From a virus, in the IMG/VR virus record IMGVR_UViG_3300025418_000937, positions 1 through 22,981 of that record: DNA of 22,981 bases. The stretch is one strand, 5' to 3'. Each line of letters starts with the position of its first letter. The stretch's first letter is position 1. The notes beneath the pieces were generated by a model. That model was given only the letters and a program-made list of their open reading frames with translations. It was not told where the DNA came from and did not search any database. Position numbers and translations under genes: made by a program. Positions 1 through 22,571 of the stretch are shown piece after piece.

Positions 1-206
1 GGGTAATGGAATACGCAAAAGCGTTAATGAAAATTTCTATAGCTAATACCCGTGGTAAGTTTGGTGGTACTCAGTTGTTCGGTCAAGGTACTATACAGTA
101 TCAAGAACTAATGAGACAGGGCACCGAAGAAAAGAAAGCTCTTGAAGACGAACTAAAAGGTGGATTCTCAGAAGCTCAACAGCCGCCAATGTTTTTCTTA
201 GGTTAA
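1..206 (+). CDS. C-terminal part of an unidentified phage protein (partial)
   Basis: The reading frame is open to the left edge (codon GTA at 3-5 precedes the first ATG at 6), so this is most likely the tail of a longer gene entering from outside the window; a 66-residue gene starting at 6 cannot be excluded. The visible part is polar and rich in Gln, Glu and Lys. It has a Gly/Gln stretch (GGTQLFGQGTIQYQE) and a charged segment likely to be helical, and ends in PPMFFLG. The stop codon at 204-206 directly abuts the stop codon of the convergent portal gene, leaving no room for a terminator between them. I do not recognise the family. A structural or packaging role would fit the portal next door but is only inference. 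Confidence 0.6.
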   Translation, partial: VMEYAKALMKISIANTRGKFGGTQLFGQGTIQYQELMRQGTEEKKALEDELKGGFSEAQQPPMFFLG

Positions 207-2042
207 TTAACCTGGAGGTAAAGCGCTTCCGCCTGCTGCAGGAGCTTGTGCAGGAGCTGCTGGTGCAGCCCCACCCGCTTCAGGTCCAGGTCCTATCTCA
301 GCAGCACCAGCACCCGGTCCAGGACCAAATGATGGAGCATTCATAGCACCAGGGGCAGCGCCACCGCCTCCACCGCCAGGTCCGCCCTGACCTTCAGGTC
401 CCTGACCCATTGTCATAGCTTCTTTCCAATTCTTACCAAGAGTAGCAATCTTATCTAATTCCCAAGCAAAAGCTGCATCCTTCTTTAACCATTCTCTATT
501 AGCTAAAACTTCGTCATCACTAAAATTCATAAACTTTTTCAGTGCATAAGTTCTAGATATTAAATTTTCCGTTGCTGTAGCGTTCTTCAAGTTATTAAAT
601 TTTATATCTAATAATTGCTGATCTCTCATTGCAGCAAAATGTGAAGGAGGGTTTAATGTAATACCGATATCATTTTCGCGTAAACCGTAATCCTTCCATA
701 AGCCCTTTAGCTTTAAATGAGTAATCAATGTATCTCTAATTGAAGAAGCAAATTGTCTTTGCAGCCTTATAATAAGACGTGCAAATTTTAATTCTTCTCG
801 TAAAATTTCAGTACCATCTGCAAACTTAGTATCAGGCGTTAACCTGCTTGAAGGTACGCGTAATGCTTTGTATAGTTTTTTAACGAAGTAATTTAAATCG
901 TCTAATTGACCTAAATTTGCACCGCCCTTGAGCACTTCTACTTTTGTACCCTGTTCTCCGTTACGACGTGCAAACCAATAACTATCTAACATTGATTGAG
1001 GATCGTAAACGTTTACGTTACCACCCTGTTGGTTGTCGTATGTGCGTTTAGACCAATAATTTTGCATTAAGCGTTTTAAGTACGCTTCTGCTTTTGCTGA
1101 AGGCATATTGCCTACATCAACATAAAATGCTAAACGTTCTGGTGCTCTTACTAAACGATAAACAACAATACTGTCTTCAATTAACGAAAGTTGTTTATAT
1201 GCTCTACGCGCTACTTCAAGATAAGGAAGACGAATCGTTTTGTTCTCATTCCATATATGAGAGTGTAAATATGTAACTTGATGGCGTTCAAGAGGTACTA
1301 AATCCATACCGTCTTTTTGTGGTCCACCAGAAGGTCCACGATTGTTTACAAAACCACCTTTGTTCTCTTCTTTAGGCTTTGGTTTTTGTAAAAGATAGCC
1401 CTTAATAATCATATTCTGAACATTATCAAAAATAGGATTGATATGTTCAGTTGGTATTTGTACTAAACTGATAATACCGGCTTCTTTATTTTCTTCGTTA
1501 ATTACATTTTCAAAGAAAAGCTCAGCATCAATTAAAATTGTCCTAAAATATTCCCATCCCTTTGTATCAAGATTAAAAAGATCTATAACTTGATTAAAGT
1601 TTTTTTCTAGTTCTTTCTTTTGACCTTCGTCTAAACGTTCACTTAAATGCAATTGAGCGTATTTACCTTTATCATCTTTAACTAAAGCATCATCGCAGAA
1701 TTCATCTAATGCGTGACTAATTTCTGCATAAGAAGCCATAATACGATAGTCGGCAATTCTCTTACCCTTATCTGTATCAATTAAAGCATATAGGTAATCG
1801 TGGTAACCTTTATCAATAATAACACCGTTTAAGTTACTAACCGGATTATTAGGATCCTGTACAATGGAAACAGCCTGCTTTAAGTTTTTTTCCTGTTGAG
1901 TGGTACCAACGTTATAAAATGTACGGAACTTTGGATTTAGCTCAGAAATGTTATCAATAACTGTTGAATTACCAGTATATGGTAATTTGTTAACAAAATT
2001 GTTAAAAGACCTTGCGAAATAGTTTTGAGGTTGCTGGGCCAT
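207..2042 (-). CDS. 20: Portal vertex protein, T4 gp20 family
   Basis: The portal forms the dodecameric ring at the unique capsid vertex through which DNA is packaged and the tail attaches. At residues about 291-335 the text RAPERLAFYVDVGN, then PSAKAEAYLKRLM, closely follows T4 gp20 as I remember it. The following Arg/Gly-rich segment with a GGANLGQLDD loop and LYKALRVPSSRL also matches. The protein has 611 residues against 524 in T4. The surplus is mainly a low-complexity Gly/Pro/Ala/Gln tail from about residue 547 to the end, probably disordered. The ATG at 2042 lies in an AT-rich context with no clear Shine-Dalgarno sequence. The gene is the last of the minus-strand run that includes the fiber genes and meets a plus-strand gene end to end. 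Confidence 0.95.
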   Translation of the reverse strand: MAQQPQNYFARSFNNFVNKLPYTGNSTVIDNISELNPKFRTFYNVGTTQQEKNLKQAVSIVQDPNNPVSNLNGVIIDKGYHDYLYALIDTDKGKRIADYRIMASYAEISHALDEFCDDALVKDDKGKYAQLHLSERLDEGQKKELEKNFNQVIDLFNLDTKGWEYFRTILIDAELFFENVINEENKEAGIISLVQIPTEHINPIFDNVQNMIIKGYLLQKPKPKEENKGGFVNNRGPSGGPQKDGMDLVPLERHQVTYLHSHIWNENKTIRLPYLEVARRAYKQLSLIEDSIVVYRLVRAPERLAFYVDVGNMPSAKAEAYLKRLMQNYWSKRTYDNQQGGNVNVYDPQSMLDSYWFARRNGEQGTKVEVLKGGANLGQLDDLNYFVKKLYKALRVPSSRLTPDTKFADGTEILREELKFARLIIRLQRQFASSIRDTLITHLKLKGLWKDYGLRENDIGITLNPPSHFAAMRDQQLLDIKFNNLKNATATENLISRTYALKKFMNFSDDEVLANREWLKKDAAFAWELDKIATLGKNWKEAMTMGQGPEGQGGPGGGGGGAAPGAMNAPSFGPGPGAGAAEIGPGPEAGGAAPAAPAQAPAAGGSALPPG

Positions 2043-2074
2043 TGTTAATATTTACACTGTAGGTTGTTATTATA

Positions 2075-2099
2075 TACTGGATTTAATAAAATGCCAGTA
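2075..2099. repeat. Inverted repeat between fiber gene and portal gene
   Basis: The arms TACTGG (2075-2080) and CCAGTA (2094-2099) are separated by 13 AT-rich bases. On the minus strand the second arm runs straight into TATATAATAAC, about 30 bases before the portal ATG. It could be a weak terminator for the fiber genes, or a site near the portal promoter. There is no T-run, so a classical intrinsic terminator is unlikely. Confidence 0.3.
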
Positions 2100-2102
2100 C
2101 TA

Positions 2103-2717
2103 TTATCTACTTATTAAGAACACACTAAAGTATGTGCCTTGACCCACACCACCACCATACTGTATACCTTGTCCGCTAGATTGATTACTATAAGCGGTAA
2201 AATCTAAATAATCTCCGGAGCCGTTTAAGTATATAACTTTTGATGTAATCTGACTGTAACCATTACCCGATAGTGGGTTTGTTTGTGTTATGGTTTGTGT
2301 AGAACCACTCTTTCTAATTTGTAGGTTATTCTGACCCCAAGCATTGGCAGGAGAAGCAGTACGCCACCAGACCTGAAACTCTACGTGATAAAAACCAGGT
2401 ATTGTTGGTGTGAAACGATATGTTGAAGTATTTAACCAACTGTTAGGATCGGCTACAACTGTTTGCCAAGGCATCAATACATCTGAACCAGCCGGGGTGG
2501 TTATGTCTCCGCTCAACGTAGCCACAGTAACATATGAGCTAGAAACCGTTGGAGATGTTATTGGATTTGTTACTATTATACTCGAGGCGGATACACTCTG
2601 AAATGTTACATTACTTGTCGTATTAAGTGTTTGATTGGCGCCAGGGCCACTAAAACCGCTTATACCAGAAAATCCTATCGGTCCTTGTAATGCTTGATAT
2701 GCAAAGTTGTTACTCAT
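2103..2717 (-). CDS. Short tail fiber protein with collagen-like neck and C1q-like head
   Basis: Residues 14-27 carry a short Gly-X-X run (GFSGISGFSGPG), the same triplets used in the giant fiber gene upstream. A segment LNTTSNVTFQSV typical of phage fiber shafts follows. Residues about 80-204 look like a C1q/TNF jelly-roll: the strand YRFTPTIPGFYHVEFQVWW, a later strand around YLDFTAYSNQSSGQ, and the closing strand GTYFSVFLISR all fit that fold's pattern. Such heads trimerise and often bind receptors or cap a fiber. It is the last of four consecutive fiber genes and starts 12 bases after the preceding stop, with AATAAATATAAACA just before the ATG and no Shine-Dalgarno sequence. The fold call is by pattern recognition only; host receptor binding is inferred. 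Confidence 0.7.
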   Translation of the reverse strand: MSNNFAYQALQGPIGFSGISGFSGPGANQTLNTTSNVTFQSVSASSIIVTNPITSPTVSSSYVTVATLSGDITTPAGSDVLMPWQTVVADPNSWLNTSTYRFTPTIPGFYHVEFQVWWRTASPANAWGQNNLQIRKSGSTQTITQTNPLSGNGYSQITSKVIYLNGSGDYLDFTAYSNQSSGQGIQYGGGVGQGTYFSVFLISR

Positions 2718-2729
2718 TGTTTATATTTA

Positions 2730-3524
2730 TTAAGAAGACATATACCTCAATGAACCGACCATTGAAGCAGGTACAGAAAAGATATTTGGTGTAAGATTTA
2801 CAGTTGATCCAGGGCCTATATTGTACAGTGTAAATCCTTGACTAGTACCTTCATTACCGCCTGTTATACCTTGACCCCCACCGGTAAGCCCGGCATAACG
2901 ATAAACACTTAAATCTCCAAACGGCATTAATAACGGGCCGTCTTCTACCGCGAACGGCAAATTAACTAAATAAAGATTAGCTGAATTTGATACACCTGTA
3001 AACGCAGATACTGATATATTAAAAGTGCAATACACATATCTACCAGTCTTTATATACGCCCCTACTGGTGTACCACCACTATAACCTACAGCAGACAAAG
3101 CATACCCGGCGGCTGATATTTGAGGTACCCAGGTACCGCTAATTTGTGTTGCATAAGTACCAGATGGTGGCGCTACATAAGCAGTATATTGACTGGTATT
3201 GTCACCAAATGTTATTGAACCACCTGCTGAAGTAATAGTATAACTGGTTGATGAAATTTGACCGAACGTAGTAATGTTGCCTGCACTACTAGTATAAAAA
3301 GAAGTTGCACCGGTTGTTGGGTTTAATATTTGTAAACCACCTCTACTAATAACAACATTACCAGATAAGTTAGCTACTTGTACCCCTGTTAAACCAGTTG
3401 TTTGATTAGCTAAATTAATAGAACCAAATGATACGAATAGGTCCTTAAACGGACGGTTAAGAGTACCAATAGACCAAGCACTGGTTGAAGGAACGATTGA
3501 TTGTTGAAAGTAGTTATAACTCAT
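2730..3524 (-). CDS. Tail fiber protein, receptor-binding type
   Basis: The N-terminal part contains IGTLNRPFKDLFVSFGSINL (residues 18-37), a motif recurrent in phage fibers where a structural comparison unit (RP-x-KDL-x-VS-x-GSI) begins the shaft. Near residue 105 is FGDNTSQYTAYV, a variant of the F-x-D-x-(S/T)-QTTAYTG motif found in the two larger fiber genes. From about residue 130 the protein follows a common fiber-tip pattern: a GAYIKTGRYVYCTFNISV strand, then NLYLVNLPFAV, then a Gly-rich end. It is predicted to be an extracellular virion protein. It begins only 1 base after the stop of the 1214-residue gene, so the two are almost certainly co-transcribed. The product ends in RYMSS. Its order relative to the other fibers in the tail is unknown. 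Confidence 0.7.
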   Translation of the reverse strand: MSYNYFQQSIVPSTSAWSIGTLNRPFKDLFVSFGSINLANQTTGLTGVQVANLSGNVVISRGGLQILNPTTGATSFYTSSAGNITTFGQISSTSYTITSAGGSITFGDNTSQYTAYVAPPSGTYATQISGTWVPQISAAGYALSAVGYSGGTPVGAYIKTGRYVYCTFNISVSAFTGVSNSANLYLVNLPFAVEDGPLLMPFGDLSVYRYAGLTGGGQGITGGNEGTSQGFTLYNIGPGSTVNLTPNIFSVPASMVGSLRYMSS

Positions 3525-3525
3525 A

Positions 3526-6500
3526 TTATAAGATATCCCAGTTGTTGTTAAAGATTAAATGTAAGCACCCGTATGGTCCAATCAACTGAGCGAATGTTAA
3601 CCCGTCAATAAGGTTTGGTCCTGTTGCAGATACTGTTATTGATTTTGTTACACCGTCTAAAGCTCCAGATTCATCTTTAATATAGTAGTTCATACCTGCA
3701 ACACCAACTGGTAACTGAACAGTCATTGCACCGTTATAGTTTATACCAACTAAGTAGTCGCTTGATTGTACATTATAAGAAGAAACAGATACGGATGAAG
3801 TATTGACTAGTACACCAGCTGTTACACCAGTGTTTACTATTGCTCTTTCATTTACAACTATACCGGTTGTTGTAGAAGTTGCAAGTAACATTGGCTTGGA
3901 TATTGTACCAATAGCGCTCGGAGATATAGTAGTTAATGCACCAGATAAACTAGTACTTAAATAATAACCTTCTCCTGGGTTTAATCCTGTTAACCCTGTA
4001 ATAATTCCGTCGTAAACAATAGTAAATGTACTACCAGTAGAAGACTGTACAATACCAGCTGCCTGTGAATGTGCAGCGCTATCAGCTAGTGCTAAGAACC
4101 AGCTTCCGTCTACGTTACTTAATCCAACTACTTGCCCGGCGCTAAATGTATTGGAGTATGTAATGACCTGACTAGAAATGTTTACTGTACTACCAGATAT
4201 ACCCGAAAAACCGCTGTAACCAGAAATACCAGAATACCCACTAATACCGGAGTAACCGCTAATACCACTATAGCCAGATATACCTGTAAAACCGCTTATA
4301 CCTGAATAACCAGATATACCAGTATAGCCTGAATAACCAGATGTACCTGTATAACCGGAAATACCACTATAACCAGATATACCAGAATAGCCGGAAATAC
4401 CTGTAAAGCCTGAAATACCAGAGTACCCACTGTAACCACTAATACCGGAGTAACCGCTAATACCACTATAGCCAGATATACCCGTATAACCACTATAACC
4501 AGATATACCAGAGTAGCCACTAATACCGCTATAACCAGATATACCTGTGTAACCAGAATAACCTGATATACCTGTAAAACCTGAAATACCAGTATAACCA
4601 GATATACCTGTAAACCCGCTATAACCACTAATACCTGTAAAGCCTGAAATACCGCTGTACCCGCTTATACCTGAATAACCAGATATACCAGTATAGCCTG
4701 AATAACCACTTATACCGGTAAAGCCGCTGTAACCTGAAATACCAGTGTAACCAGATATGCCAGTATAACCACTGTAACCGGTGAAGCCTGAATAACCTGA
4801 AGTACCAATAGCACCTTGTGCTCCTTGTGCACCGTTTGTACCAGCAGCGCCTTGCGCACCGGCTGAACCTGTTGTACCACTAAAGCCTGAATAACCAGAA
4901 GTACTGTTACCAGAAAAACCAGATATACCACCTTGACCAGCTACCTGTATTTCGAACCAAGGGTTAGTATTTACTGGAAAATCTGTATTACCATTAATAC
5001 CCACGTTACCAGCGGTATTGTTTAGTAGCTGTAAAGATACATTAGTAGTTGTTACCGGAGTAATAATAGCTGCAGCAATACCACCAGCCGCTAAATACGC
5101 AGCATTACTTGTAGTACCGTATGTCGGGCTTACACTACCTATTTGCGTGCCTGTTGTAGTATTAACCCAACCAAAAGCAACTTGACCACCGCCAGCACTA
5201 GCAGAAACTGCAGGTACCTCAGCTCTTAATGAATATGTGTAACCAGCAGATAATGTAATAACACCTGTAGAAGTGTTGAGCGAGATATAACCTTGACCAA
5301 GATCGGCGTCAGCAGTATTAAACACTACAGCACCGCTTAATGCTATTGCCTGTCTGGTGTTTCTACTACCTCTTAAATAAGGTACTGGAGCAGGATTACC
5401 TGCAGGACCTGTAGGACCGCTATAACCAGAAGTACCAGTAGTACCTTGCGCACCAGTAGCGCCTTGAGCACCGGTAGCACCTTGCGCTCCATTTATACCG
5501 GAATAACCTGAAGTGCCTATACCGCTAAAACCACTATAACCCGAGGTACCACTATCTCCTTTAATTTGGCCTACATTAGTCCAGGTTGTACCACTATATA
5601 CCCATAAATTACCGAGTTTTTCATCGATAACCCCGTTACCTACAGTTGCTGCGGAAAAAGCAGTGTTTAAAGTTGTTTGCGGATTATTCGGTGGGTTTAC
5701 ATATACATCTGGTACAGTACCGATAATAGTAACCGAAGAACCGTTTACACCAGAATAACCTGATGTACCTACATCACCTTGAGCGCCTTGAAAACCTTGA
5801 TCCCCTTGCGCGCCTTGGAAACCAATATCGCCTTGAGCACCTTGTACACCAATAGCACCTTGAGCACCTTGATTACCTTGATAGCCTTGCGCACCTGAAG
5901 TAGAATATAACGCCCACTCAGACGGATCGTTTGAAGGATCTAAGTAAACATTTACAGTCGTTACTAGACTAATATATGTATTATTAGTTATTGGGGATAC
6001 TGCAACTGTATTTGCTACATATGAAGACTGTACCCAAGTACCAATAAAGTTTAATACTGTACCTTGCGCACCTTGTGCACCTTGGAAGCCTTGATCTCCC
6101 TGGGCACCTTGTGCACCAATATCGCCTTGATTACCTTGGAAGCCCTGAGCGCCTTGATCTCCTTGCGCTCCTTGATTGCCTTGGAAGCCTTGATCTCCCT
6201 GAGCGCCTTGTGCACCATCATTACCGTTAGCGCCTTGTGCACCTTGTGCTCCTGAACTACCACTACCTGCAGGGCCATATGTAATTTCTGCTGTAGATGT
6301 ATTATAATACACAGCATTTATAACAGAGTCTGTATCATTGCGTACTGGGTTTACAAAGAAACCGCTGCTTAATGCAGGAGTAACATTACCTGTTGCATTA
6401 ATAACAATACTATTAGGAACTTGATAAGGATAATCACTTTCTGCACCACCAGCATAATGACCGATAGCGATAGCGTTATTACCTTGTTGATAATGACCAG

Positions 6501-7170
6501 CAAATCTACCAATAGCAATAGCGTGTCTACCTTGACCAGTAGCACCAGCGTGATTACCAATAGCAACTGATTGATCAAGTTGATCTGTGGAACCAGCATA
6601 TGTACCAATAGCTACTGAATCAGTGTGTTGATTTGTGTTACCAGCATTTAAACCAATAGCAACTGAGTCTGTAGATTGAGAAGTGATTCCTGCACCTGTA
6701 CCGATTGCGATTGGGTTAGTAAAATTATTAACTCCCGTATAAGCTGTGGTTTGTATTGAACCGTCTGGGAATACTATTGTACCGCTTAACCCTATACTAG
6801 TACCAGCTTGAGATTGCGGGTCTATTGCAGCTGAAGGTAATATTAACCGGCCACTTAAATCAAAATTCCAATTATTAAATAGGGATCCACCGTTATCTAC
6901 ACTAGTTTGTATCCAGGCACCGTCGTCTTGAGCAAAAACTATTTGATTAAAGCTATTACTATATATACCTGCTGAACCACCTGGTGGTGCAATAATTTCT
7001 CCTGAACTTATTGCTGATTTATCGCTAAAAGCTATCGCAGTACCGTTATTAAAGTACAGATTACCATCTGTAGATAATGTAACTGTATTTGAACCGTTTA
7101 TAAGTTGGTCTGTAGGACCACCACTACCACCACCCGATAAACCAGGAAATAAGTTTCTATTCCAATACAT
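3526..7170 (-). CDS. Giant fiber/adhesin with YadA-like head repeats and collagen-like tracts
   Basis: This 1214-residue mosaic virion protein is built as follows. A fiber-type N-terminus contains FPDGSIQTTAYTG near residue 135. Six YadA-like head repeats (VAIGxxAG) with a strict 16-residue period lie at about 152-261. GAQG-rich collagen-like tracts lie at about 306-371, 426-471 and 558-589. Between the tracts are small beta modules, including GTWVQSSYVANTVAV at about 375. A C1q-like or beta-sandwich domain spans about 597-745. A long Gly-X-X tract of GIS/GYS/GFT/GYT triplets spans about 791-993. The C-terminal fiber domain carries YNGAMTVQLPVG and IKDESGA and ends in NNWDIL. Such parts form elongated trimers on the tail for host attachment. 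The long tract has almost no proline, unlike animal collagen. The ATG overlaps the junction with the upstream fiber gene (3-base gap); GGAG lies about 14 bases upstream. Confidence 0.85.
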   Translation of the reverse strand: MYWNRNLFPGLSGGGSGGPTDQLINGSNTVTLSTDGNLYFNNGTAIAFSDKSAISSGEIIAPPGGSAGIYSNSFNQIVFAQDDGAWIQTSVDNGGSLFNNWNFDLSGRLILPSAAIDPQSQAGTSIGLSGTIVFPDGSIQTTAYTGVNNFTNPIAIGTGAGITSQSTDSVAIGLNAGNTNQHTDSVAIGTYAGSTDQLDQSVAIGNHAGATGQGRHAIAIGRFAGHYQQGNNAIAIGHYAGGAESDYPYQVPNSIVINATGNVTPALSSGFFVNPVRNDTDSVINAVYYNTSTAEITYGPAGSGSSGAQGAQGANGNDGAQGAQGDQGFQGNQGAQGDQGAQGFQGNQGDIGAQGAQGDQGFQGAQGAQGTVLNFIGTWVQSSYVANTVAVSPITNNTYISLVTTVNVYLDPSNDPSEWALYSTSGAQGYQGNQGAQGAIGVQGAQGDIGFQGAQGDQGFQGAQGDVGTSGYSGVNGSSVTIIGTVPDVYVNPPNNPQTTLNTAFSAATVGNGVIDEKLGNLWVYSGTTWTNVGQIKGDSGTSGYSGFSGIGTSGYSGINGAQGATGAQGATGAQGTTGTSGYSGPTGPAGNPAPVPYLRGSRNTRQAIALSGAVVFNTADADLGQGYISLNTSTGVITLSAGYTYSLRAEVPAVSASAGGGQVAFGWVNTTTGTQIGSVSPTYGTTSNAAYLAAGGIAAAIITPVTTTNVSLQLLNNTAGNVGINGNTDFPVNTNPWFEIQVAGQGGISGFSGNSTSGYSGFSGTTGSAGAQGAAGTNGAQGAQGAIGTSGYSGFTGYSGYTGISGYTGISGYSGFTGISGYSGYTGISGYSGISGYSGISGFTGISGYSGFTGISGYTGISGFTGISGYSGYTGISGYSGISGYSGISGYSGYTGISGYSGISGYSGISGYSGYSGISGFTGISGYSGISGYSGISGYTGTSGYSGYTGISGYSGISGFTGISGYSGISGYSGISGYSGISGYSGFSGISGSTVNISSQVITYSNTFSAGQVVGLSNVDGSWFLALADSAAHSQAAGIVQSSTGSTFTIVYDGIITGLTGLNPGEGYYLSTSLSGALTTISPSAIGTISKPMLLATSTTTGIVVNERAIVNTGVTAGVLVNTSSVSVSSYNVQSSDYLVGINYNGAMTVQLPVGVAGMNYYIKDESGALDGVTKSITVSATGPNLIDGLTFAQLIGPYGCLHLIFNNNWDIL
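4194..4800 (-). repeat. Degenerate short tandem repeats encoding Gly-X-X (GIS/GYS/GFT)
   Basis: About 600 bases consist of 9- and 18-base imperfect units (plus-strand flavour: ACCAGATATACC, ACCACTATAACC). They encode roughly 68 Gly-X-X triplets within the giant fiber gene. The unit spelling varies at third positions, so the amino-acid pattern is kept while the DNA has diverged. Such tracts can expand or contract by slippage or recombination. They also create long open frames on the same strand in other registers, which are not genes. Confidence 0.9.
6390..6718 (-). repeat. Six 48-base repeats encoding YadA-like head units
   Basis: Within the giant fiber gene, the motif (V/I)AIGxxAG occurs six times at an exact 16-residue (48-base) spacing: AIGTGAG, AIGLNAG, AIGTYAG, AIGNHAG, AIGRFAG, AIGHYAG. 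In bacterial trimeric autotransporters, units of this kind build a left-handed parallel beta-roll. Here they are expected to form a similar trimeric block in a phage fiber. Confidence 0.85.
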
Positions 7171-13403: not shown

Positions 13404-13773
13404 TTGGTAATTTTAAATTAAATTGCTCTATGTATAGACTTACTTCTCTACTTGAGATTTCAAGGCAGTTGGCAACCTTAGTTAAGCTTTCATTAGACTT
13501 CTTAACAGTTTCTTTTTTCGCTTTTTTAATGTAATTGAATCGCTTGTATTTGCACTTAGGTATTATTGTATCTAAAGCAGTAAACCATTCAGAATTACCT
13601 TCAAAACTCTTCCAATATCTATTAGTAGTTTCGTTGACTATATGAGCAAGCGGTGCAGAATACATAGAACACCAACGCTGAACAAGGAACGGTTGAAATT
13701 CCTTGTTCTCGTTGATGTTTTCTACGTTAATTTCCTTACCTTTATATAAAACTCTGTTAATGTAATCAAACAT
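13381..13773 (-). CDS. Probable DNA polymerase clamp loader small subunit (gp62-like)
   Basis: In T4, gp62 with gp44 loads the sliding clamp gp45. This 130-residue protein has the pattern I associate with short gp62-type subunits of distant T4-like phages: FDYIN at the start, FQPFLVQRWCSMYSAPLAHI (residues 26-45), then a helix leading to IIPKCKYKRFNYIKKAKKE (70-88). The last 40 residues are a charged helix-turn-helix-like end (LTKVANCLEISSREVSLYIE). It is shorter than T4 gp62 (187). The ATG overlaps the upstream stop as TAATG, and its 3' end overlaps the co-chaperonin-like gene. The match is by pattern only. The C-terminal part could alternatively suggest a small DNA-binding protein. Confidence 0.5.
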   Translation of the reverse strand: MFDYINRVLYKGKEINVENINENKEFQPFLVQRWCSMYSAPLAHIVNETTNRYWKSFEGNSEWFTALDTIIPKCKYKRFNYIKKAKKETVKKSNESLTKVANCLEISSREVSLYIEQFNLKLPNEEKSNT

Positions 13774-14354
13774 TAAACAATAACCTTTGTGGTTGCAACA
13801 AAAATATTATCTACCATACCATAGAATAACTGATGCACCTGTTTTTGGAATGTTTCAGCTTGTTCAGGTGTAAGGTTAGTGCTATATGCAAATGCAGGAG
13901 CTTTTTTACCAGCATTAATATTAATACCGGTATGTCCAATAGCTACTCCGTCTTTAGAATAGGTTATACTAACCGACGCTTTGCCTTTTTGCTGTATGAT
14001 ACCACCCTGATTGTGTTCAGAATGAATAATAATATCATCGCCCTTCATTTCAATAGGCTTGTTAATATAAGGGTGTAAAGCATTTGCAATATTAGTATTA
14101 AATAAACGCTGAAAACATACCGCACCGAATGGATCTAAGTTAGGTATTTCCCAGCAAAAATTAATCATAGAATCACTATAGATATAGTCTTTCTCTAAAG
14201 AATCTTCTAAATCTATAAGGTTTAAAGTTACCTCTACAGGTGCAACAAAGCTAACAATATTACCTATAGCTAAGGTACGCTCTCTAAAATACTTATAAGC
14301 AAAGCGTTTATGTATAAAGTCACCGTTATATATGTTTTGGTCTGTAATGATCAT
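13773..14354 (-). CDS. DUF366-like protein
   Basis: The 193-residue product resembles the DUF366 family, known mostly from archaea and some bacteria and phages, with no function that I can cite. The fitting features are an N-terminal IYNGDFIHKRFAYKYF, then NLIDLEDSLEKDYIYSDSMI (aligning with the family's MVDLEDV...S-x-DMLHF), a CFQRLF motif, KGDDIIIH, and KASVSITYSKDGVAIGHTGI followed by NINAG, which fits the family's K-x-SVSI...HxGINI signature. A C-terminal helix carries EQAETFQKQVHQLFYGMVD. The gene is 23 bases downstream of the glycosyltransferase and overlaps the next gene as TAATG. The AT-rich gap before it has TTATAATTTACTATT and no Shine-Dalgarno sequence. On the same strand upstream lie queC and the amidotransferase, so a link to base modification is possible but unproven. 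Confidence 0.6.
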   Translation of the reverse strand: MIITDQNIYNGDFIHKRFAYKYFRERTLAIGNIVSFVAPVEVTLNLIDLEDSLEKDYIYSDSMINFCWEIPNLDPFGAVCFQRLFNTNIANALHPYINKPIEMKGDDIIIHSEHNQGGIIQQKGKASVSITYSKDGVAIGHTGININAGKKAPAFAYSTNLTPEQAETFQKQVHQLFYGMVDNIFVATTKVIV

Positions 14355-15366: not shown

Positions 15367-15738
15367 CTATTTACCGAAAAAATGTATTAAAAGATCAGTA
15401 ACACTACTTATTAACGCAACCCAAATAGCTGTTTGCATATGCCAATGTAAGCCCTGCTGCTTTTGATGCTTAGTATCGCATTTACTTATAGTGGTGTGCA
15501 TTTCGTTATGGTACACTTCCATTAAGTCTCGTGTTTCGTTAAAACGGCTATCTATTTCTGCTCTTAAATGCGCAACGTCATTATTAAGAGTTGCAACCTG
15601 CTGCATTAAACTCGGGTGACCATTGCCATCTCGTACAATCTTACTAATATTAGCAAGATCTTCTTTAACATTAACTATATCTCTGTTAATATAGTCGATA
15701 ACAGTATTACGTTCAGGTGTAGATTTTTTTGCGGGCAT
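15367..15738 (-). CDS. Coiled-coil protein with C-terminal membrane anchor (XhlA-like layout)
   Basis: The 123-residue product has a long amphipathic region (residues about 12-75; heptad-like pattern through DIVNVKEDLANISKIV and VATLNNDVAHLRAEIDSRF). A His-rich linker follows (KCDTKHQKQQGLHWHMQ), then one hydrophobic segment at about 103-121 (AIWVALISSVTDLLIHFF) ending in GK. Helical domain plus terminal membrane anchor is the layout of the XhlA-type holin accessory proteins, so a role in lysis or membrane association is possible; sequence identity to XhlA is not evident. The ATG is preceded by ATAGGT (weak AGG). The gene lies 8 bases after the amidotransferase stop. Confidence 0.6.
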   Translation of the reverse strand: MPAKKSTPERNTVIDYINRDIVNVKEDLANISKIVRDGNGHPSLMQQVATLNNDVAHLRAEIDSRFNETRDLMEVYHNEMHTTISKCDTKHQKQQGLHWHMQTAIWVALISSVTDLLIHFFGK

Positions 15739-15746
15739 ACCTATAC

Positions 15747-16403
15747 TTAGAATATAAAGTATGGAGATTTATGCTTAAATTTTCCTGCTGGCACTATACA
15801 ATCGTAATCCTGTATTGCATAAACAATCCCCTCGTTTAAGGATTCACTACCTTCAAATTCAGTAGACGAAAAACATCCCGTAACTGGATTAGCAAATAGT
15901 GTACTTGCACTTCTAGCTAAATAGGTTTTTTTGTGTTTGCTATTAAAAGCCCATATAGCATATGTACCTTTAAGAGATTCCATAGCTTCTGATACTTTTA
16001 ATTTAATTTCTAACATACGCGGTATAATACAGCTATCGGTTCTACCGGTAAAATCTTCGTCAGGAAAATACTCTCTACATAAACTCTCAAAATTACTAAT
16101 AATACCGTTATGAGCCACTATCCAATCACCATAAATGAACGGGTGATTGTCTCCAGGTTCAAACGATTTCGTTTCTACGGTTGGTCCTCGAGAGTGATAC
16201 AAGTAATAACGACCGTGGGTATCTATACCTGGCGGATTAAAACAATCTACAGGTTCATTGAAGATACCTTCTGTCTTTTGAATACCGTACTGATTATTAG
16301 AGTCTAATACCAACGTACCCGAACTATAATGACCTCTCGCAAGATTATCTTTGTATAAACTAAAAGCTATGTCTTTAATTTTACTACCCGCTATACCGCA
16401 CAT
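15747..16403 (-). CDS. Class II glutamine amidotransferase (Ntn hydrolase), next to QueC
   Basis: This stand-alone glutaminase domain of 218 residues releases ammonia from glutamine for an acceptor enzyme. Residues expected for the GlmS/PurF fold are present: Cys2 in MCGIAG (nucleophile after Met removal), RGHYSSG (23-29), HSRGPT (70-75), NHPF (86-89), AHNGIISN (97-104) and the GRTDS loop (120-124). No synthetase or isomerase domain is attached, so it must act with a partner. The gene begins 1 base after the queC stop, the most obvious partner. In crenarchaea and some phages a fused Gat-QueC protein converts preQ0 to archaeosine-type bases, so a split version is plausible. Alternatives are amidation of a sugar or other small molecule. 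Confidence 0.85.
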   Translation of the reverse strand: MCGIAGSKIKDIAFSLYKDNLARGHYSSGTLVLDSNNQYGIQKTEGIFNEPVDCFNPPGIDTHGRYYLYHSRGPTVETKSFEPGDNHPFIYGDWIVAHNGIISNFESLCREYFPDEDFTGRTDSCIIPRMLEIKLKVSEAMESLKGTYAIWAFNSKHKKTYLARSASTLFANPVTGCFSSTEFEGSESLNEGIVYAIQDYDCIVPAGKFKHKSPYFIF

Positions 16404-16404
16404 A

Positions 16405-17127
16405 TTATGTTAAATAGGTTAAAGGTTTACAATCGTATCGTTCCCAAGGAATATTACGTGAATATTTAATAGGGTCAATAGCTTTATTGTCAATAAAGCC
16501 TTTAATTCGTGCAGCACACGACACACATTCCCCGCAAGCAGGATCAGTACCCTCGTAACAGGTATGTGTTTGTCTAAAGTCTACTTGTATGTCAATGCCA
16601 GTTTTAATAACCTCTTCTTTAGAGTAACGCATAAACGGTGCATTAACCTTAATTGTGTTCTTACGATTAAGTCCGTATATGTCGTTAACTTTATTGAGAA
16701 ACATTGAAGTACAATCCCAATAACCTGAAAAATCGTCTGTTTCTACAGCTCCATAAAATAGGTCTTGTGCACCGATTGATTCAGCCCAACCTGCCGCACT
16801 TGTTAATAATAACAAGTTTCTGAAAGGTACATAACTTAAAGGCTGAGCATTACCAATATCATCTTTAGCTTTTGGTATCTTAAGATCCGTATTAGTTAAA
16901 GCAGACATTGTAGAGATATCTCTAAAGAAATCCATATTGATTACTTTATGCTCTTTAACATTGCAGGCTTTAGCTTGAAACTTAGCACATTCAATCTCTC
17001 GAGCAATCCGTTGACCGTAATTAAATGTAACGGCGTATACTTCATCGTATTTAAGTGTTTTGGTTACATAATGTAATAATACGGTACTATCCATACCGCC
17101 TGATAATATGACTAGTGCTTTCGACAT
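16405..17127 (-). CDS. queC: 7-cyano-7-deazaguanine (preQ0) synthase QueC
   Basis: QueC uses ATP and ammonia to convert 7-carboxy-7-deazaguanine to preQ0. The PP-loop SGGMDS is at 9-14. VPFRNLLLLTSAAGWAES (100-117) and GAVETDDFSGYWDC are family landmarks. The zinc site is Cys190, Cys198, Cys201 and Cys204 in CYEG...ACGECVSCAARIKGF. At 240 residues it is of normal length (about 230) and appears intact. It is the first gene after a divergent 51-base gap and is followed after 1 base by the amidotransferase gene. A late-promoter-like TATAAATC lies about 18 bases upstream of its ATG. In phages QueC usually serves DNA protection by 7-deazaguanine derivatives; host tRNA queuosine supply is the alternative. 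Confidence 0.95.
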   Translation of the reverse strand: MSKALVILSGGMDSTVLLHYVTKTLKYDEVYAVTFNYGQRIAREIECAKFQAKACNVKEHKVINMDFFRDISTMSALTNTDLKIPKAKDDIGNAQPLSYVPFRNLLLLTSAAGWAESIGAQDLFYGAVETDDFSGYWDCTSMFLNKVNDIYGLNRKNTIKVNAPFMRYSKEEVIKTGIDIQVDFRQTHTCYEGTDPACGECVSCAARIKGFIDNKAIDPIKYSRNIPWERYDCKPLTYLT

Positions 17128-17178: not shown

Positions 17179-18081
17179 ATGTATATGAAGAATGTGTTCC
17201 AAGATGCTTTTAGGGAGTCTTTAGACAAAGAGGGTGCAGGTATTATGCACTATGCTGATCAAAAAGCAAAAGAAGCCGGTAAAAAAGAGTTTAAACTTGG
17301 CAACAAAACATTCCCTGTAAAGGAAAAAAAGAAACTTGAAGATGAAGGTAATGCCTTCGGTCAAGCTGTACAAAATACTCCTAAAGGACAGGAAATTAAA
17401 GTTCACGGTCATAGTACCGGAGAAATTAAAAAAGAAAATGATCCAAAGTGGATCCAGCACGCTCACGTGAAAAAGGGTGGTTTACATAAAGCTTTACACG
17501 TTGCGCAAGGTGAAAAGATTCCTGCTGCTAAACTAAGCAAAGCTTTACACAGCAAGAATCCGCACGTTAAGCATATGGCTCAATTTGCAAAGAACGTAAA
17601 GAAAGAAAATGCTTTAGAAAAAGGTTTTGCAAATGTAGTAAAGGAAAATTTAGCTATGGGGTTTGAAGCAGCTCCAAAAGCACCTGTACCACCAGCTCCA
17701 GCTGAACCAGCTCCAGACGAAGGAGAAGCAGCCTGGAAAAAATCTTTAGATCCGCAAACTGATCCAAACAAATTCGATGCAGCTAAAAACCCGGCTCTTA
17801 AGCTTGACACTGAGGGTGTTGTTAAAGCTCGTGAATGGATTAAAAAGCTTGATGATATGGCAACATTCATTAACGGTACAGATGAGAGCAGTTTAAATGC
17901 ACAAATTAATGCATTAGAAATGCGTAACTCTATTCCTTTTAAGGGTATTGTCCGCCGTGAAGAAAAACGTATTACTAAATTAGCTGAAAACTTACGTGGT
18001 TTGGCAGAACTATTTAAGACTGTTGTTACGAGTTCTGGTAAGAAGATACACGACGCAACAAGCCGTATTAGCTCTCGTTAA
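17179..18081 (+). CDS. Basic phage protein with GLHKAL...GEKIPAAKL motif, unknown role
   Basis: The 300-residue, strongly basic protein is one of only two complete plus-strand genes here. Residues 99-141 carry KGGLHKALHVAQGEKIPAAK and a following helix; a similar GLH...GEKIP segment recurs in other phage proteins, to my recollection without a known role. A Pro/Ala/Glu linker (about 163-186) separates this from a C-terminal helical domain (207-300; KAREWIKKLDD, KRITKLAENLRGLAELFKT). There is no signal peptide, membrane segment or catalytic motif. Two in-frame ATGs (17179, 17185) are possible and neither has a Shine-Dalgarno sequence. The gene overlaps the convergent primase gene by 4 bases. 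A virion-internal or DNA-binding role fits its charge but is inference. Confidence 0.75.
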   Translation: MYMKNVFQDAFRESLDKEGAGIMHYADQKAKEAGKKEFKLGNKTFPVKEKKKLEDEGNAFGQAVQNTPKGQEIKVHGHSTGEIKKENDPKWIQHAHVKKGGLHKALHVAQGEKIPAAKLSKALHSKNPHVKHMAQFAKNVKKENALEKGFANVVKENLAMGFEAAPKAPVPPAPAEPAPDEGEAAWKKSLDPQTDPNKFDAAKNPALKLDTEGVVKAREWIKKLDDMATFINGTDESSLNAQINALEMRNSIPFKGIVRREEKRITKLAENLRGLAELFKTVVTSSGKKIHDATSRISSR

Positions 18082-19114: not shown

Positions 19115-19570
19115 ATGGCTCTAAAGAATAGCAAATTTATTCAAGGAATTTACACTCCTATTAACAAAAACAAATATATGGGTAGTGCTAATCCTGTATA
19201 CAGATCAGCATTGGAAAGAGACTTCTTTTTGTTTTTCGACAAAAACCCTAATGTTACAGCCTGGGCTAGTGAAAGCATAGTTGTGCCTTATTATAGTGAT
19301 GTTGATCATAAAGTACACCGGTATTATGTAGACTTGATAGCAGCTATCAAGGATAAAGATGGTAATAACAAAAAATATTTGATAGAATTAAAACCGTTTG
19401 CTCACACTCAACCACCTATTCCTTCGGATAGAAAAAAACAGAGTACGGTACTGTATGAACATTTAATGTACAAACAAAATCAAGCCAAATGGAAAGCCGC
19501 GAGTGAGTACGCGGCTAAAAAAGGAATGGAATTTATTGTATTGACTGAAAAATATCTTACAGCTCAGTAG
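19115..19570 (+). CDS. 4: Head completion nuclease, T4 gp4-like (TnsA-type fold)
   Basis: T4 gp4 (gp50/gp65 complex) finishes DNA-filled heads so that tails can attach. The family landmarks are visible: GIYTPINKNKYMG near the start, VYRSALERDFFLF (28-40; Glu34), WASESIVVPYYSDVD (50-64; Glu53), HRYYVDL (68-74; Asp73) and IELKPFAHTQPP (90-101; Glu91 and Lys93). The Glu...Asp...Glu-X-Lys set is the TnsA/PD-(D/E)XK nuclease signature, so the active site appears complete. The length (151) matches T4 gp4 (150). It is on the plus strand, divergent from primase, and its 3' end overlaps the convergent 197-residue gene by 14 bases. Confidence 0.85.
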   Translation: MALKNSKFIQGIYTPINKNKYMGSANPVYRSALERDFFLFFDKNPNVTAWASESIVVPYYSDVDHKVHRYYVDLIAAIKDKDGNNKKYLIELKPFAHTQPPIPSDRKKQSTVLYEHLMYKQNQAKWKAASEYAAKKGMEFIVLTEKYLTAQ

Positions 19571-20150
19571 GATCTACTGGCTCATCTCTCATATCAATCT
19601 TTGGCTCATCAAAATCAATTTCACCAGGCTCTTCTTCCGGTTCTGGTCTAGCTGCTGGTTTACGGCCTGCTTTACCCTTAAGGCCGCGCAGTCTTAAAAT
19701 AGCATCCTTAACGCGCGCCATTTTAGCAGCTTTTTCAGCTCTAGCAATCGTATCAATGTCTGGCTCCTGCTCTTCACCGCCACCTGATTGTGCATCAGCC
19801 ATAGCTGATTTTACTACTTCAGGATCAAGATTAAGAGGTGTTTCTTCTGAATCCATTGAACTAATACCAGCTAGCACTTCTTGTTCAGTAGCATTAGGGT
19901 TATGTTGTAGATAATTTGCTACAGCATCTTTAGTTCTTAAAGTGTCTGGTAACTCTTTGTATTTAGTACCAGCAGGCGCTGCAGCTGGTGTAGCTGGTGC
20001 GCTACCTTTTTGTGCGTTAACCATATTACGAGCTTTCCAGTATGGAATACCCTGTGCTACAAGTTTATCAATTTCTGGGTTTCTTGGTTTTGCCATTTCC
20101 AATTCAAATGTAGATTCGGCAATGTAATTAATGGCTTCGTCAAATTTCAT
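19557..20150 (-). CDS. Acidic-tailed protein with capsid-targeting-like N-terminus; candidate internal head protein
   Basis: The 197-residue product begins MKFDEAINYIAES. T4 internal protein IPIII, as I recall it, begins MKTYQEFIAEA; this leader targets it to the prohead core and is cut by the gp21 protease after the (I/L)-x-E motif. An equivalent cut here would fall after IAE (residue 12). Next comes a basic conserved-looking part (PEIDKLVAQGIPYWKARNMV, residues 25-44) and an Ala/Pro linker. Later a helical basic patch (MARVKDAILRLRGLKGKAGR) precedes a strongly acidic C-terminal tail. There are no catalytic or membrane features. The gene follows the kinase gene after 16 bases and converges on gp4. 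The internal-protein idea is inference; it could be any small cytoplasmic protein. Confidence 0.7.
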   Translation of the reverse strand: MKFDEAINYIAESTFELEMAKPRNPEIDKLVAQGIPYWKARNMVNAQKGSAPATPAAAPAGTKYKELPDTLRTKDAVANYLQHNPNATEQEVLAGISSMDSEETPLNLDPEVVKSAMADAQSGGGEEQEPDIDTIARAEKAAKMARVKDAILRLRGLKGKAGRKPAARPEPEEEPGEIDFDEPKIDMRDEPVDPTEL

Positions 20151-20166
20151 AGTATAATAATACTTA

Positions 20167-21309: not shown

Positions 21310-22116
21310 TTATACTTTAAGGGCTTTGTCCCAAACCTGCAAGTGCATTCTGTTCGAGAACTTAAAATTATATTTCTTACATAGTTCAGCTACTACAGGC
21401 CCAACCTCTAGTAGTTCTTTACGACTACCACACATAGGCATAACCCATACATTACTAGAAGGTAAACCTACATCAGGATTATTAAGATAGTTTTCTAATA
21501 CTTCGTTTAAGTCTGATTCTTGCTTAGCAACAAACTTAAAGCAAGCATCGTGTAATACTAGATAACGTAGTACTTCTGGTTTGAAACGTTTATCAACTGG
21601 ATCTCCATTACTAGATAATTTAGGTGAAGTAGTAAACGTTACATTAACACCGAGACAGGACCATTCATCATCAGGCATAATAGTTCCGTTAGTTTCAAAG
21701 TCGATATGTAATCTAGGCTTACCGATATCATTAGCAGTAAGAGTTCTACTGTAATTAGCGAAACCCCAACGATCTCTAATAAACTTAACAAATAATAGTA
21801 AATTCTTCTGCTGAATAAAGGGTTCACCACCAGTTAACTTAAGTAAAGCACCTTCTTTTAATCTTTCGTGGTAATCATTCTTTTCAAAGAGTTGTGCTAC
21901 TTCTTCAAACGTCATTTTATTCTTCTTAGACCAGCTAACGTAGCTATCACAACCGTTTGGTGAGTCTTCACTCTTAAAACCAATACAGGTTAAGTTACAC
22001 ATAGCCATTCTCATAAACACTGAAGGGTAACCAATATAACGACCTTCACCTTCTAGTGTGTAGAATACGAAATCATCAGAAATGAATAAAGTTGTATTAG
22101 GATCTATATTAGACAT
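21310..22116 (-). CDS. queE: 7-carboxy-7-deazaguanine synthase QueE (radical SAM)
   Basis: QueE rearranges 6-carboxytetrahydropterin to 7-carboxy-7-deazaguanine using S-adenosylmethionine and a 4Fe-4S cluster. The landmarks are TLEGEGRYIGYPSVFMRM (20-37), the cysteines Cys40, Cys44 and Cys56 (CNLTC...GCDSYVSW), LTGGEPF (94-100), HIDFETNGT (137-145) and FTTSPKLS (161-168). The spacing CX3CX11C differs from the usual CX3CX2C because about nine residues are inserted before the third cysteine; the C-D-S-x-x-SW context after it is kept. The length (268) is slightly above many bacterial QueE (about 210-250). It follows queD by 14 bases. The ATG lies in an AT-rich context (TATAATACCTAT) with no Shine-Dalgarno sequence. 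Confidence 0.9.
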   Translation of the reverse strand: MSNIDPNTTLFISDDFVFYTLEGEGRYIGYPSVFMRMAMCNLTCIGFKSEDSPNGCDSYVSWSKKNKMTFEEVAQLFEKNDYHERLKEGALLKLTGGEPFIQQKNLLLFVKFIRDRWGFANYSRTLTANDIGKPRLHIDFETNGTIMPDDEWSCLGVNVTFTTSPKLSSNGDPVDKRFKPEVLRYLVLHDACFKFVAKQESDLNEVLENYLNNPDVGLPSSNVWVMPMCGSRKELLEVGPVVAELCKKYNFKFSNRMHLQVWDKALKV

Positions 22117-22130
22117 ATAGGTATTATATA

Positions 22131-22571
22131 TTATGCTTTATAAATTGCACTATTATCTGGGTGTTCCCAAACTTCTACTTTAGAACACCAGCAACGGCCT
22201 GTAGTTAAATTATCAACGTATTCGTTTGCTAATCTATGGCAAAGTTCAGCAAATCTTTCAATACCTACACCGTCTTCAAGTACCACTAGTTCAATCATTT
22301 TACGTTGTTCTAGCTGTTTAAATATATCTAAGTCAGGGTCTTTTGCCCATACAACTGTCTTATGATCGAAGTACTCCTCTAAAGAAGTTTTAAGCTGCTT
22401 TAAAGCACCAAAATCTACAACCCAGTTGTTTTGATCTAAAACATCACAGGTAAACCAGAACTTAGCCTGTAAGCGGTACCCGTGAATAAAGTGACAATGA
22501 CTTTGTGCGTAAGGCTGTCTAAATGCAGCCGACCCTAGTGGAATGACTTTAGTAGATGTAAATTTACCCAT
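22131..22571 (-). CDS. queD: 6-carboxy-5,6,7,8-tetrahydropterin synthase QueD (phage-type)
   Basis: QueD turns dihydroneopterin triphosphate into 6-carboxytetrahydropterin, the substrate of QueE just downstream. The family signals are SHCHFIHGYRLQAKFWF (24-40), with Cys26 as the likely catalytic residue and His30-Gly31 of the HGH-type zinc motif; NNWVVDFGALKQLK (48-61); FDHKTVV (68-74); GVGIERFAEL (102-111); and VEVWEHPDNSA near the end. The canonical third His of HGH is Tyr32, and the canonical early Zn-binding His appears to be Phe17 (AAFRQP). I recall FRQ.../HGY forms in other phage QueD-like proteins, so this is probably a subfamily feature. The length (146) is normal. A weak AAGG lies just before the ATG. 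Confidence 0.85.
   Translation of the reverse strand: MGKFTSTKVIPLGSAAFRQPYAQSHCHFIHGYRLQAKFWFTCDVLDQNNWVVDFGALKQLKTSLEEYFDHKTVVWAKDPDLDIFKQLEQRKMIELVVLEDGVGIERFAELCHRLANEYVDNLTTGRCWCSKVEVWEHPDNSAIYKA

Follow-up and report, generated by a model that had tools for sequence, protein, structure and literature searches.

The window analysed here is the whole of the 22,981-base record IMGVR_UViG_3300025418_000937, which by its gene content belongs to a T4-like phage; it encodes the portal protein gp20 (Portal_T4 in Pfam, E 5.2e-110), and a family search also identifies genes for a primase and a helicase. The focus of this report is a minus-strand gene that runs convergently with gene 4, which overlaps its 3' end by 14 bp. 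The features of this gene and of its surroundings are collected in Table 1.

Table 1. Features of the gene under study and of related genes in the window; a slash within a sequence marks a predicted or presumed cut.
Feature	Position	Strand	Description and basis
Gene under study	19557..20150	-	197 aa, starts MKFDEAINYIAES; putative internal head protein; conserved ORF, conserved ATG
Leader, codons 1-12 (MKFDEAINYIAE)	20115..20150	-	Putative capsid-targeting propeptide; I10 and E12 invariant, P1' variable
Predicted cut between codon 12 (Glu) and codon 13 (Ser)		-	Written MKFDEAINYIAE/S; gp21-type site
Late-promoter-like motif TAAGTATT	20159..20166	-	Starts 16 nt upstream of the ATG, between the kinase gene and the gene under study
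Three-helix core, helix-turn-helix-like, codons 68-121	19788..19949	-	AlphaFold2 and weak HTH-type matches of homologues
Basic helix region, codons 126-166, ending GKAGRK	19653..19775	-	Alignment, AlphaFold2, charge
Acidic tail, codons 167-197	19560..19652	-	Charge; two main alternative tails among homologues
Gene 4 (head completion/closure)	19115..19570	+	phrog_218, E 8.1e-47
gp20 portal	207..2042	-	On contig G020 followed by gp21, a gp22-like protein and gp23
Second leader-type protein, 300 aa (MKNVFQDAFRESLDKEG..., by eye)	17185..18081 (300-aa ORF at 17179-18081)	+	Sister-clade counterpart starts MSTFANKFLKALNE/D

Several other genes of the window deserve mention in their own right. The 300-residue protein carries AGKKEFKLGDKTFPVKEK-like repeat units in relatives and a C-terminal part which, by eye, is very conserved; in the phage collection it has one match, of 47 residues, in Tunturiibacter phage Tunturi_3. 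At 15367-15738, an ORF of 123 residues with a late-type motif 11 nt upstream and a C-terminal stretch that by eye resembles a membrane helix is a possible lysis protein. Positions 13773-14354, 15747-17127 and 21310-22571 hold a DUF366 protein (E 6e-19) and genes that by eye resemble those for QueC, QueD, QueE and a glutamine amidotransferase, perhaps together a 7-deazaguanine DNA-modification set. Finally, the 1214-residue product of 3526-7170, with its long collagen-like GAQG and SGYSGIS repeats, is judged by eye to be probably a fibre.

Relatives of the gene and conservation of its leader

The ORF is a real gene. Relatives are present in viral contigs, 3 of them found among 54 pattern stretches by a single-sequence search and 25 among 68 by an alignment search, and all 25 have an ATG at the leader start. 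An alignment of 16 rows (A2), comprising the window protein and 15 relatives after omission of 10 that are identical or nearly identical to rows kept, has 18 invariant columns, six of which fall within the first twelve residues (M1, K2, F3, A6, I10 and E12). In all 16 rows an [IL]xE motif ends at column 12, with A or S at P2 and S, N, T, A or H at P1', and no other [IL]xE is common to half or more of the rows, that is, the family has no further conserved gp21-type site. Compared codon by codon across 17 sequences, the leader codons vary synonymously while the six invariant residues remain unchanged, which points to selection on the peptide.

Mean identity across the family is 47%. The body behind the constant leader is a mosaic, in which the segment EIEKLVAQGMPYWKAR alternates with AILARAAELEKQGLSPATAYAYARKEF among homologues, and the tails likewise alternate between the MRDEPVDPTEL kind and GGTGSQNPYDYEGQD. 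In a sister clade the gene at the same place beside gene 4 starts MNFNKFANIINE/S or MNFNKLANVINE/S; an alignment of eight divergent members that includes this strongly diverged clade keeps M1, F3, I10 and E12, and I10-x-E12 is found in 8/8 rows. With the site invariant in both alignments and P1' variable, the first-pass annotation, which had seen a gp21-type IAE cleavage site in the leader, is borne out on this point.

Known families offered no name for the protein. The window protein has no tblastn match in 50,697 phage records at E 10, no match to a PHROG or Pfam family at E 0.1 or to an NCBIfam or PADLOC family at E 1, and no detected homology to the T4 internal proteins; five homologues gave no internal-protein PHROG match at E 1, sequences of solved structures gave 0 matches at E 1, and in bacterial and archaeal genomes 33 pattern stretches yielded 0 relatives. 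The idea that the protein might belong to a class including anti-restriction proteins found no support in the family searches. The first-pass annotation had also suggested looking for the same leader on other proteins, and here a degenerate DNA pattern led back to the family itself, matching 25 viral stretches, once each, all of this family. By contig name, 24 of these lie on contigs already known for the gene and L208 is a new homologue; L208 and L206 were translated and are both homologues, and the remaining 23 rest on earlier translations.

The predicted cleavage site, the phage protease and the late-type motif

The resemblance on which the first-pass annotation had drawn, namely that the leader mirrors that of T4 IPIII, did not hold up as evidence and was rejected: the pairwise score is 12, a value at chance, since 463 of 5000 shuffles attain it. 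Among 88 N-termini of gene families from the same phages, 4, of which two look leader-type by eye, likewise score at least 12 against the IPIII leader. According to an excerpt of PMC9026906, residues 1-10 of IPIII are enough for targeting, in which residues 4 and 7 take part, while cutting involves residues 8 and 10. When the two leaders are anchored at the site, Y9 matches F7 of IPIII, A6 faces its Y4, and F3 is invariant in the family, a partial counterpart only.

Site conservation was assessed in an enrichment test on the genes of a sister genome and of nine records, three of which fall slightly short of completeness, with 74 families of at least three sequences; the sister-clade member was assigned to the family of the present gene manually, blastp having made no link between the two. 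Across all families an invariant [IL]xE occurs in 8/74 N-termini and in 61/728 internal windows (P = 0.30), so that there is no general N-terminal enrichment of the motif. Among families below 75% mean identity the counts are 6/48 versus 18/431 (P = 0.024), below 65% they are 4/23 versus 3/228 (P = 0.0016), and below 55% they are 2/15 versus 1/144 (P = 0.024). The four N-terminal families below 65% comprise that of the present gene, two of leader type and one, MKGLQLNTEEKQLLVE, that does not clearly look like a leader. Ranked by the difference in conservation between the first twelve residues and the rest, the gene stands third of 74, its leader being more conserved than its body; of the seven families ranked highest, five, that of this gene included, are leader-type by eye. 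Judged from these comparisons, what is above chance is the invariant I10-x-E12 in a diverging protein.

A regular expression for leaders, derived from T4 and from leaders found beforehand and thus partly designed after looking, matches 14 of 88 families, whereas 2000 shuffles gave 4.54 on average and at most 12; a late-type motif lies within 90 nt of 6/14 matching families versus 10/74 others (P = 0.018). Its false matches include MNVYIGFCSTAT and a kinase family at a wrong start, and among the genes tested in two T4 stretches it matches 10 of 70, IPI, IPII, IPIII and gene 2 included, of which at least five are not head proteins by annotation. Because of its post-hoc design and these matches, the expression is given little weight.

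The protease that would act on such a site is encoded outside the window. gp21 (Peptidase_S77) is found in 18 of 24 records, and the check for a gp21 homologue that the first-pass annotation had proposed gave a positive answer for this phage: contig G020, identical to window positions 1-3613 at 3613 of 3613 bases, carries gp21 (PF03420, E 3.3e-35), together with a gp23 recognized by phrog_138 and a gp22 assigned by position and by eye, without a family match. In an alignment of four gp21 rows, the columns of what we take to be the catalytic triad of T4 gp21 (H85, S140 and D168) are invariant. A triad of H, S and D is given in an excerpt of PMC5694885, and excerpts of PMC9026906 and PMC5694885 describe cutting by T4 gp21 after L/I-x-E and the targeting of internal proteins by short propeptides. 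In several related phages the pro-region of gp23 ends ...ENQEQWC[LI][NG]E/A, like the FLTE/A of T4 (site assigned by eye); the window phage's own gp23 has CFE/A, not [IL]xE, at the presumed site.

Upstream of the gene, TAAGTATW is present in 27/27 homologous loci (15/15 distinct upstream sequences), and sister-clade copies have TAAGTAAT, one base off, in 2/2 distinct upstream sequences. With orthologous genes counted repeatedly in both sets, the motif occurs 77 times in the stretches scanned, 35 times at 8-35 nt before an ORF start, compared with a mean of 5.05 for 60 letter permutations (the motif among them), the next best of which, with 19, is the motif shifted by one base; in a wider set that overlaps the first, 61 of 120 occurrences stand at this distance from ORF starts. 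Among the genes that follow it are those for gp21, a tail-sheath stabiliser, a head-tail adaptor, a baseplate wedge protein and an endolysin and, in one record, gene 4; several genes for leader-type proteins also have it, and so do ORFs which by eye are lipoprotein-, glycosyltransferase- and homing-endonuclease-like. The motif lies 68-69 nt upstream of gp23, and in a DNA polymerase family it is found within 90 nt in at least one record, so that TAAGTATW also occurs outside the virion genes. Of the 27 ORFs of the window, 3 have it within 40 nt. An excerpt of PMC3037559 gives TATAAAT as the late motif of T4, and we regard TAAGTATW as a putative late promoter. In the wider set it stands mostly 11-13 nt before start codons (39/61), with no evident Shine-Dalgarno sequence in between; if it is a late promoter, many late mRNAs of the clade would be nearly leaderless.

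Leader-type N-termini were also seen on other motif-bearing genes (MKNFNILYTKLLED, MRDKSFNKLVQLLE, MKNSKFNSLFKEAY, MKRNIYTLLAEKY, MPNVKLLAEKY and MSKRKTNKLLSEAEYY), all assigned by eye, the regular expression that gathers such starts not being specific. Separately, two large nucleotidyltransferase-type proteins by eye start in a comparable manner, L109:1421-3301 (MISFKNYFNERILEES; DUF6267 E 4.4e-57, CTP_transf_like E 3.1e-5) and L173:11152-12795 (MFSFKQFFLLNEGG; CTP_transf_like E 0.0033, below cut-off), and portions of the two have matches in 179 and 520 phage records, for the most part those of cyanophages; by eye, similar leaders are seen in proteins of cultured relatives, which start MQGFKTFLSEA and MITFHVFITEA, the latter being the cytidyltransferase of P-RSM6. 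A leader-type protein of 70-90 residues (L106:15025-15273, L117:19391-19603, counterparts in L111 and L114, and L170:6298-6570), with a late-type motif 31-32 nt upstream, has a middle part that resembles the mature N-arm of gp23 of the same phages, SSDFYAPGDAR...RRTFPK versus SSDFYAQGDAR...RRTFPE, with an added run of lysines (two members give pairwise blastp values of E 2e-8 and 4e-5).

The protein body and competing explanations

The protein as a whole is acidic (pI 4.7, charge -12.4), and its basic parts are confined to residues 13-60 and 126-166, the latter with a pI of 10.0 and a charge of +3.8. Residues 167-197 are acidic (pI 4.1, charge -10.2), and the acidic tail and the basic character of the helix region that the first-pass annotation had pointed out are confirmed by calculation. 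In several homologues an AT-hook-like KGRPGRK (recognized by eye) takes the place of the GKAGRK of the window protein. AlphaFold2 predicts helices only, in a model that is poor overall (mean pLDDT 66.7, pTM 0.32) and reaches a pLDDT of about 87-90 for residues 71-120, with a leader helix at residues 2-19 at low confidence; a fold search with it returned nothing significant, the best PDB match being a Pax paired domain at E 0.28 and the best in BFVD having E 0.20. Homologues L104 and L145 give weak HTH-type matches to Sigma70_r3 (E 0.0029 and 0.015, below Pfam's cut-off), and a homologue weakly matches the transcriptional activator family phrog_1324 (E 0.0016). Taken with the helical body and the basic region, these HTH-type matches make DNA binding by the body plausible. 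A match of L145 to phrog_722, a family of unknown function (E 7e-6), was set aside as uninformative, with 0/15 phage records matched at E 1 and 3/14 cellular control genomes matched.

We consider it probable that the gene encodes a late internal head protein that is targeted by its leader, cut by gp21 after Glu12, associated with DNA and probably ejected with it. The steps we infer are core binding, cleavage, packaging, DNA binding and ejection: the gene would be expressed late, its first 12 residues would act as a targeting propeptide that binds the prohead core and carries the protein inside, and the phage's own gp21 would remove this leader after Glu12. The mature protein, beginning at Ser13, would then be held on the packaged DNA through its small helical core of DNA-binding type and its basic helix, and would probably leave with the DNA on ejection. 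A single conserved [IL]xE site followed by a variable P1' is what would be expected of a propeptide cut once, not of a shredded core protein. The reading of the first-pass annotation is in our view more likely right than wrong, on grounds other than those it gave; it is supported by the conserved site at residue 12, the gp21 of the phage, the late-type motif and, by eye, leaders of broadly similar form on further proteins of these phages.

A sharper version of this explanation is that the protein replaces that of T4 gene 2, being packaged, binding the DNA ends and shielding them from host exonuclease after ejection, which we hold to be a possible but rather unlikely refinement. In T4, Melnitz-3, HTVC008M and P-RSM6 (4/4), gene 2 (phrog_429) adjoins gene 4 (phrog_218), on the same strand in T4, Melnitz-3 and P-RSM6 and on the opposite strand in HTVC008M, and it is this slot that the convergent gene described here holds, its family adjoining gene 4 in 16/16 distinct places listed and at the sister-clade locus L152. 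While phrog_429 is found in 4/4 reference phages, it was detected in 0/11 related records, and an alignment search for gp2 found 0/13 related records and recovered the control P-RSM6; the related records in both counts may all be fragments. T4 gp2 itself has a leader-like start, MAIFQIINE/ST, near the FANIINE/SL of the sister clade, and its residues 1-79 match the HTH family phrog_32288. Against this, the distant relatives L151, L154, L155 and L158 have other neighbours beside gene 4, three marine gp2 proteins are without the leader and the HTH part of T4 gp2, and homology of the protein to T4 gp2 was rejected because hhalign, run against a profile made from T4 gp2 by itself, gave E 0.53 and 0.57. 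Gene 2 is, moreover, described as undetected in some marine cyanophages too (excerpt of PMC2993671), and hence its absence need not imply replacement. Without detectable gp2 homology, and with other neighbours of gene 4 in distant relatives, the protein may act like gp2 without necessarily being a gp2.

Taken further, this would mean that the clade lost gene 2 and that the slot was refilled by an unrelated, leader-tagged HTH-type protein, one of several late proteins tagged with short, gp21-cleavable leaders, among them large enzyme-like proteins (DUF6267 with nucleotidyltransferase) and a capsid-protein mimic. We regard this scenario as doubtful; if true, a diversity of proteins would be packed into the heads of this clade.

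We also give a small chance to a late, non-virion protein, either a DNA-binding regulator or a replication or packaging accessory, whose N-terminal helix would bind another partner and never be cut. Such a role would agree with the weak matches to Sigma70_r3 (E 0.0029) and phrog_1324, with the kinase and primase genes close by and with the occurrence of the late-type motif near a DNA polymerase gene; however, invariant P3 and P1 with a free P1' form the pattern of a protease site, and the genes of named families with the motif at 8-35 nt are structural, head-completion, protease and lysis genes, the exceptions being named by eye only. A prohead core component like gp67 or gp68, shredded by gp21 and leaving the head, would likewise be helical, partly acidic and preceded by a late-type motif, but the sole conserved [IL]xE site lies at the leader, whereas T4 core proteins are cut into multiple fragments (excerpt of PMC9026906), which makes this explanation very unlikely. 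Equally improbable is a chance likeness, in which the N-terminal helix would be an ordinary one and its IAE incidental, and for which the IPIII score, the T4 matches of the regular expression and the missing all-family enrichment could be cited, but which sits badly with I10 and E12 kept across so diverged a family and with the high rank of the leader in conservation over the body.

Comparison with known head proteins

Our preferred explanation, a late internal head protein, would place the gene among those whose products are cargo delivered with the DNA, a group of T4-like phage proteins about which little is known beyond the T-even phages. A conserved leader, a phage gp21 and a late-type motif could in combination be used to list packaged or injected proteins from environmental genomes, and such leaders would supply new natural targeting tags. 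Among the matches listed, no paper dealt with capsid-targeting leaders in this clade or in cyanophages. The trick of tagging with a leader is known from T4, and here it is probably used on a protein family that is yet without a name.

As far as can be told from sequence, a putative N-terminal propeptide of 12 residues ending in I-x-E fits the T4 capsid-targeting class in length and in site. Like the gene described here, putatively a late one, the late-type genes of T4 IPI, IPII, IPIII and Alt encode a short N-terminal helix ending in a gp21-type site and belong to a phage that encodes gp21, and in both cases the leader persists while the bodies vary. In contrast, the T4 internal proteins are without sequence homology to the present protein, which is acidic overall and has a helix-turn-helix-like core, whereas an excerpt of PMC9026906 calls the related T-even internal proteins basic; furthermore, its leader is two residues longer than that of IPIII, whose targeting residues are matched in part only. 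T4 gp2, the DNA-end protector (phrog_429), resembles it in adjoining gene 4, in a leader that ends I-x-E/S and in an HTH-type N-terminal part, but the protein has neither the conserved phrog_429 domain nor profile similarity to gp2. Finally, the head and ejection proteins of SPN3US carry, according to an excerpt of PMC5694885, an N-terminal propeptide that is cut after Glu by a gp21-type protease, a likeness in which cleavage is presumed for the protein of the window; in the same excerpt, the SPN3US propeptides are mostly longer than 100 residues and cut after A-x-E, in contrast to the 12 residues and the I-x-E of the leader described here.
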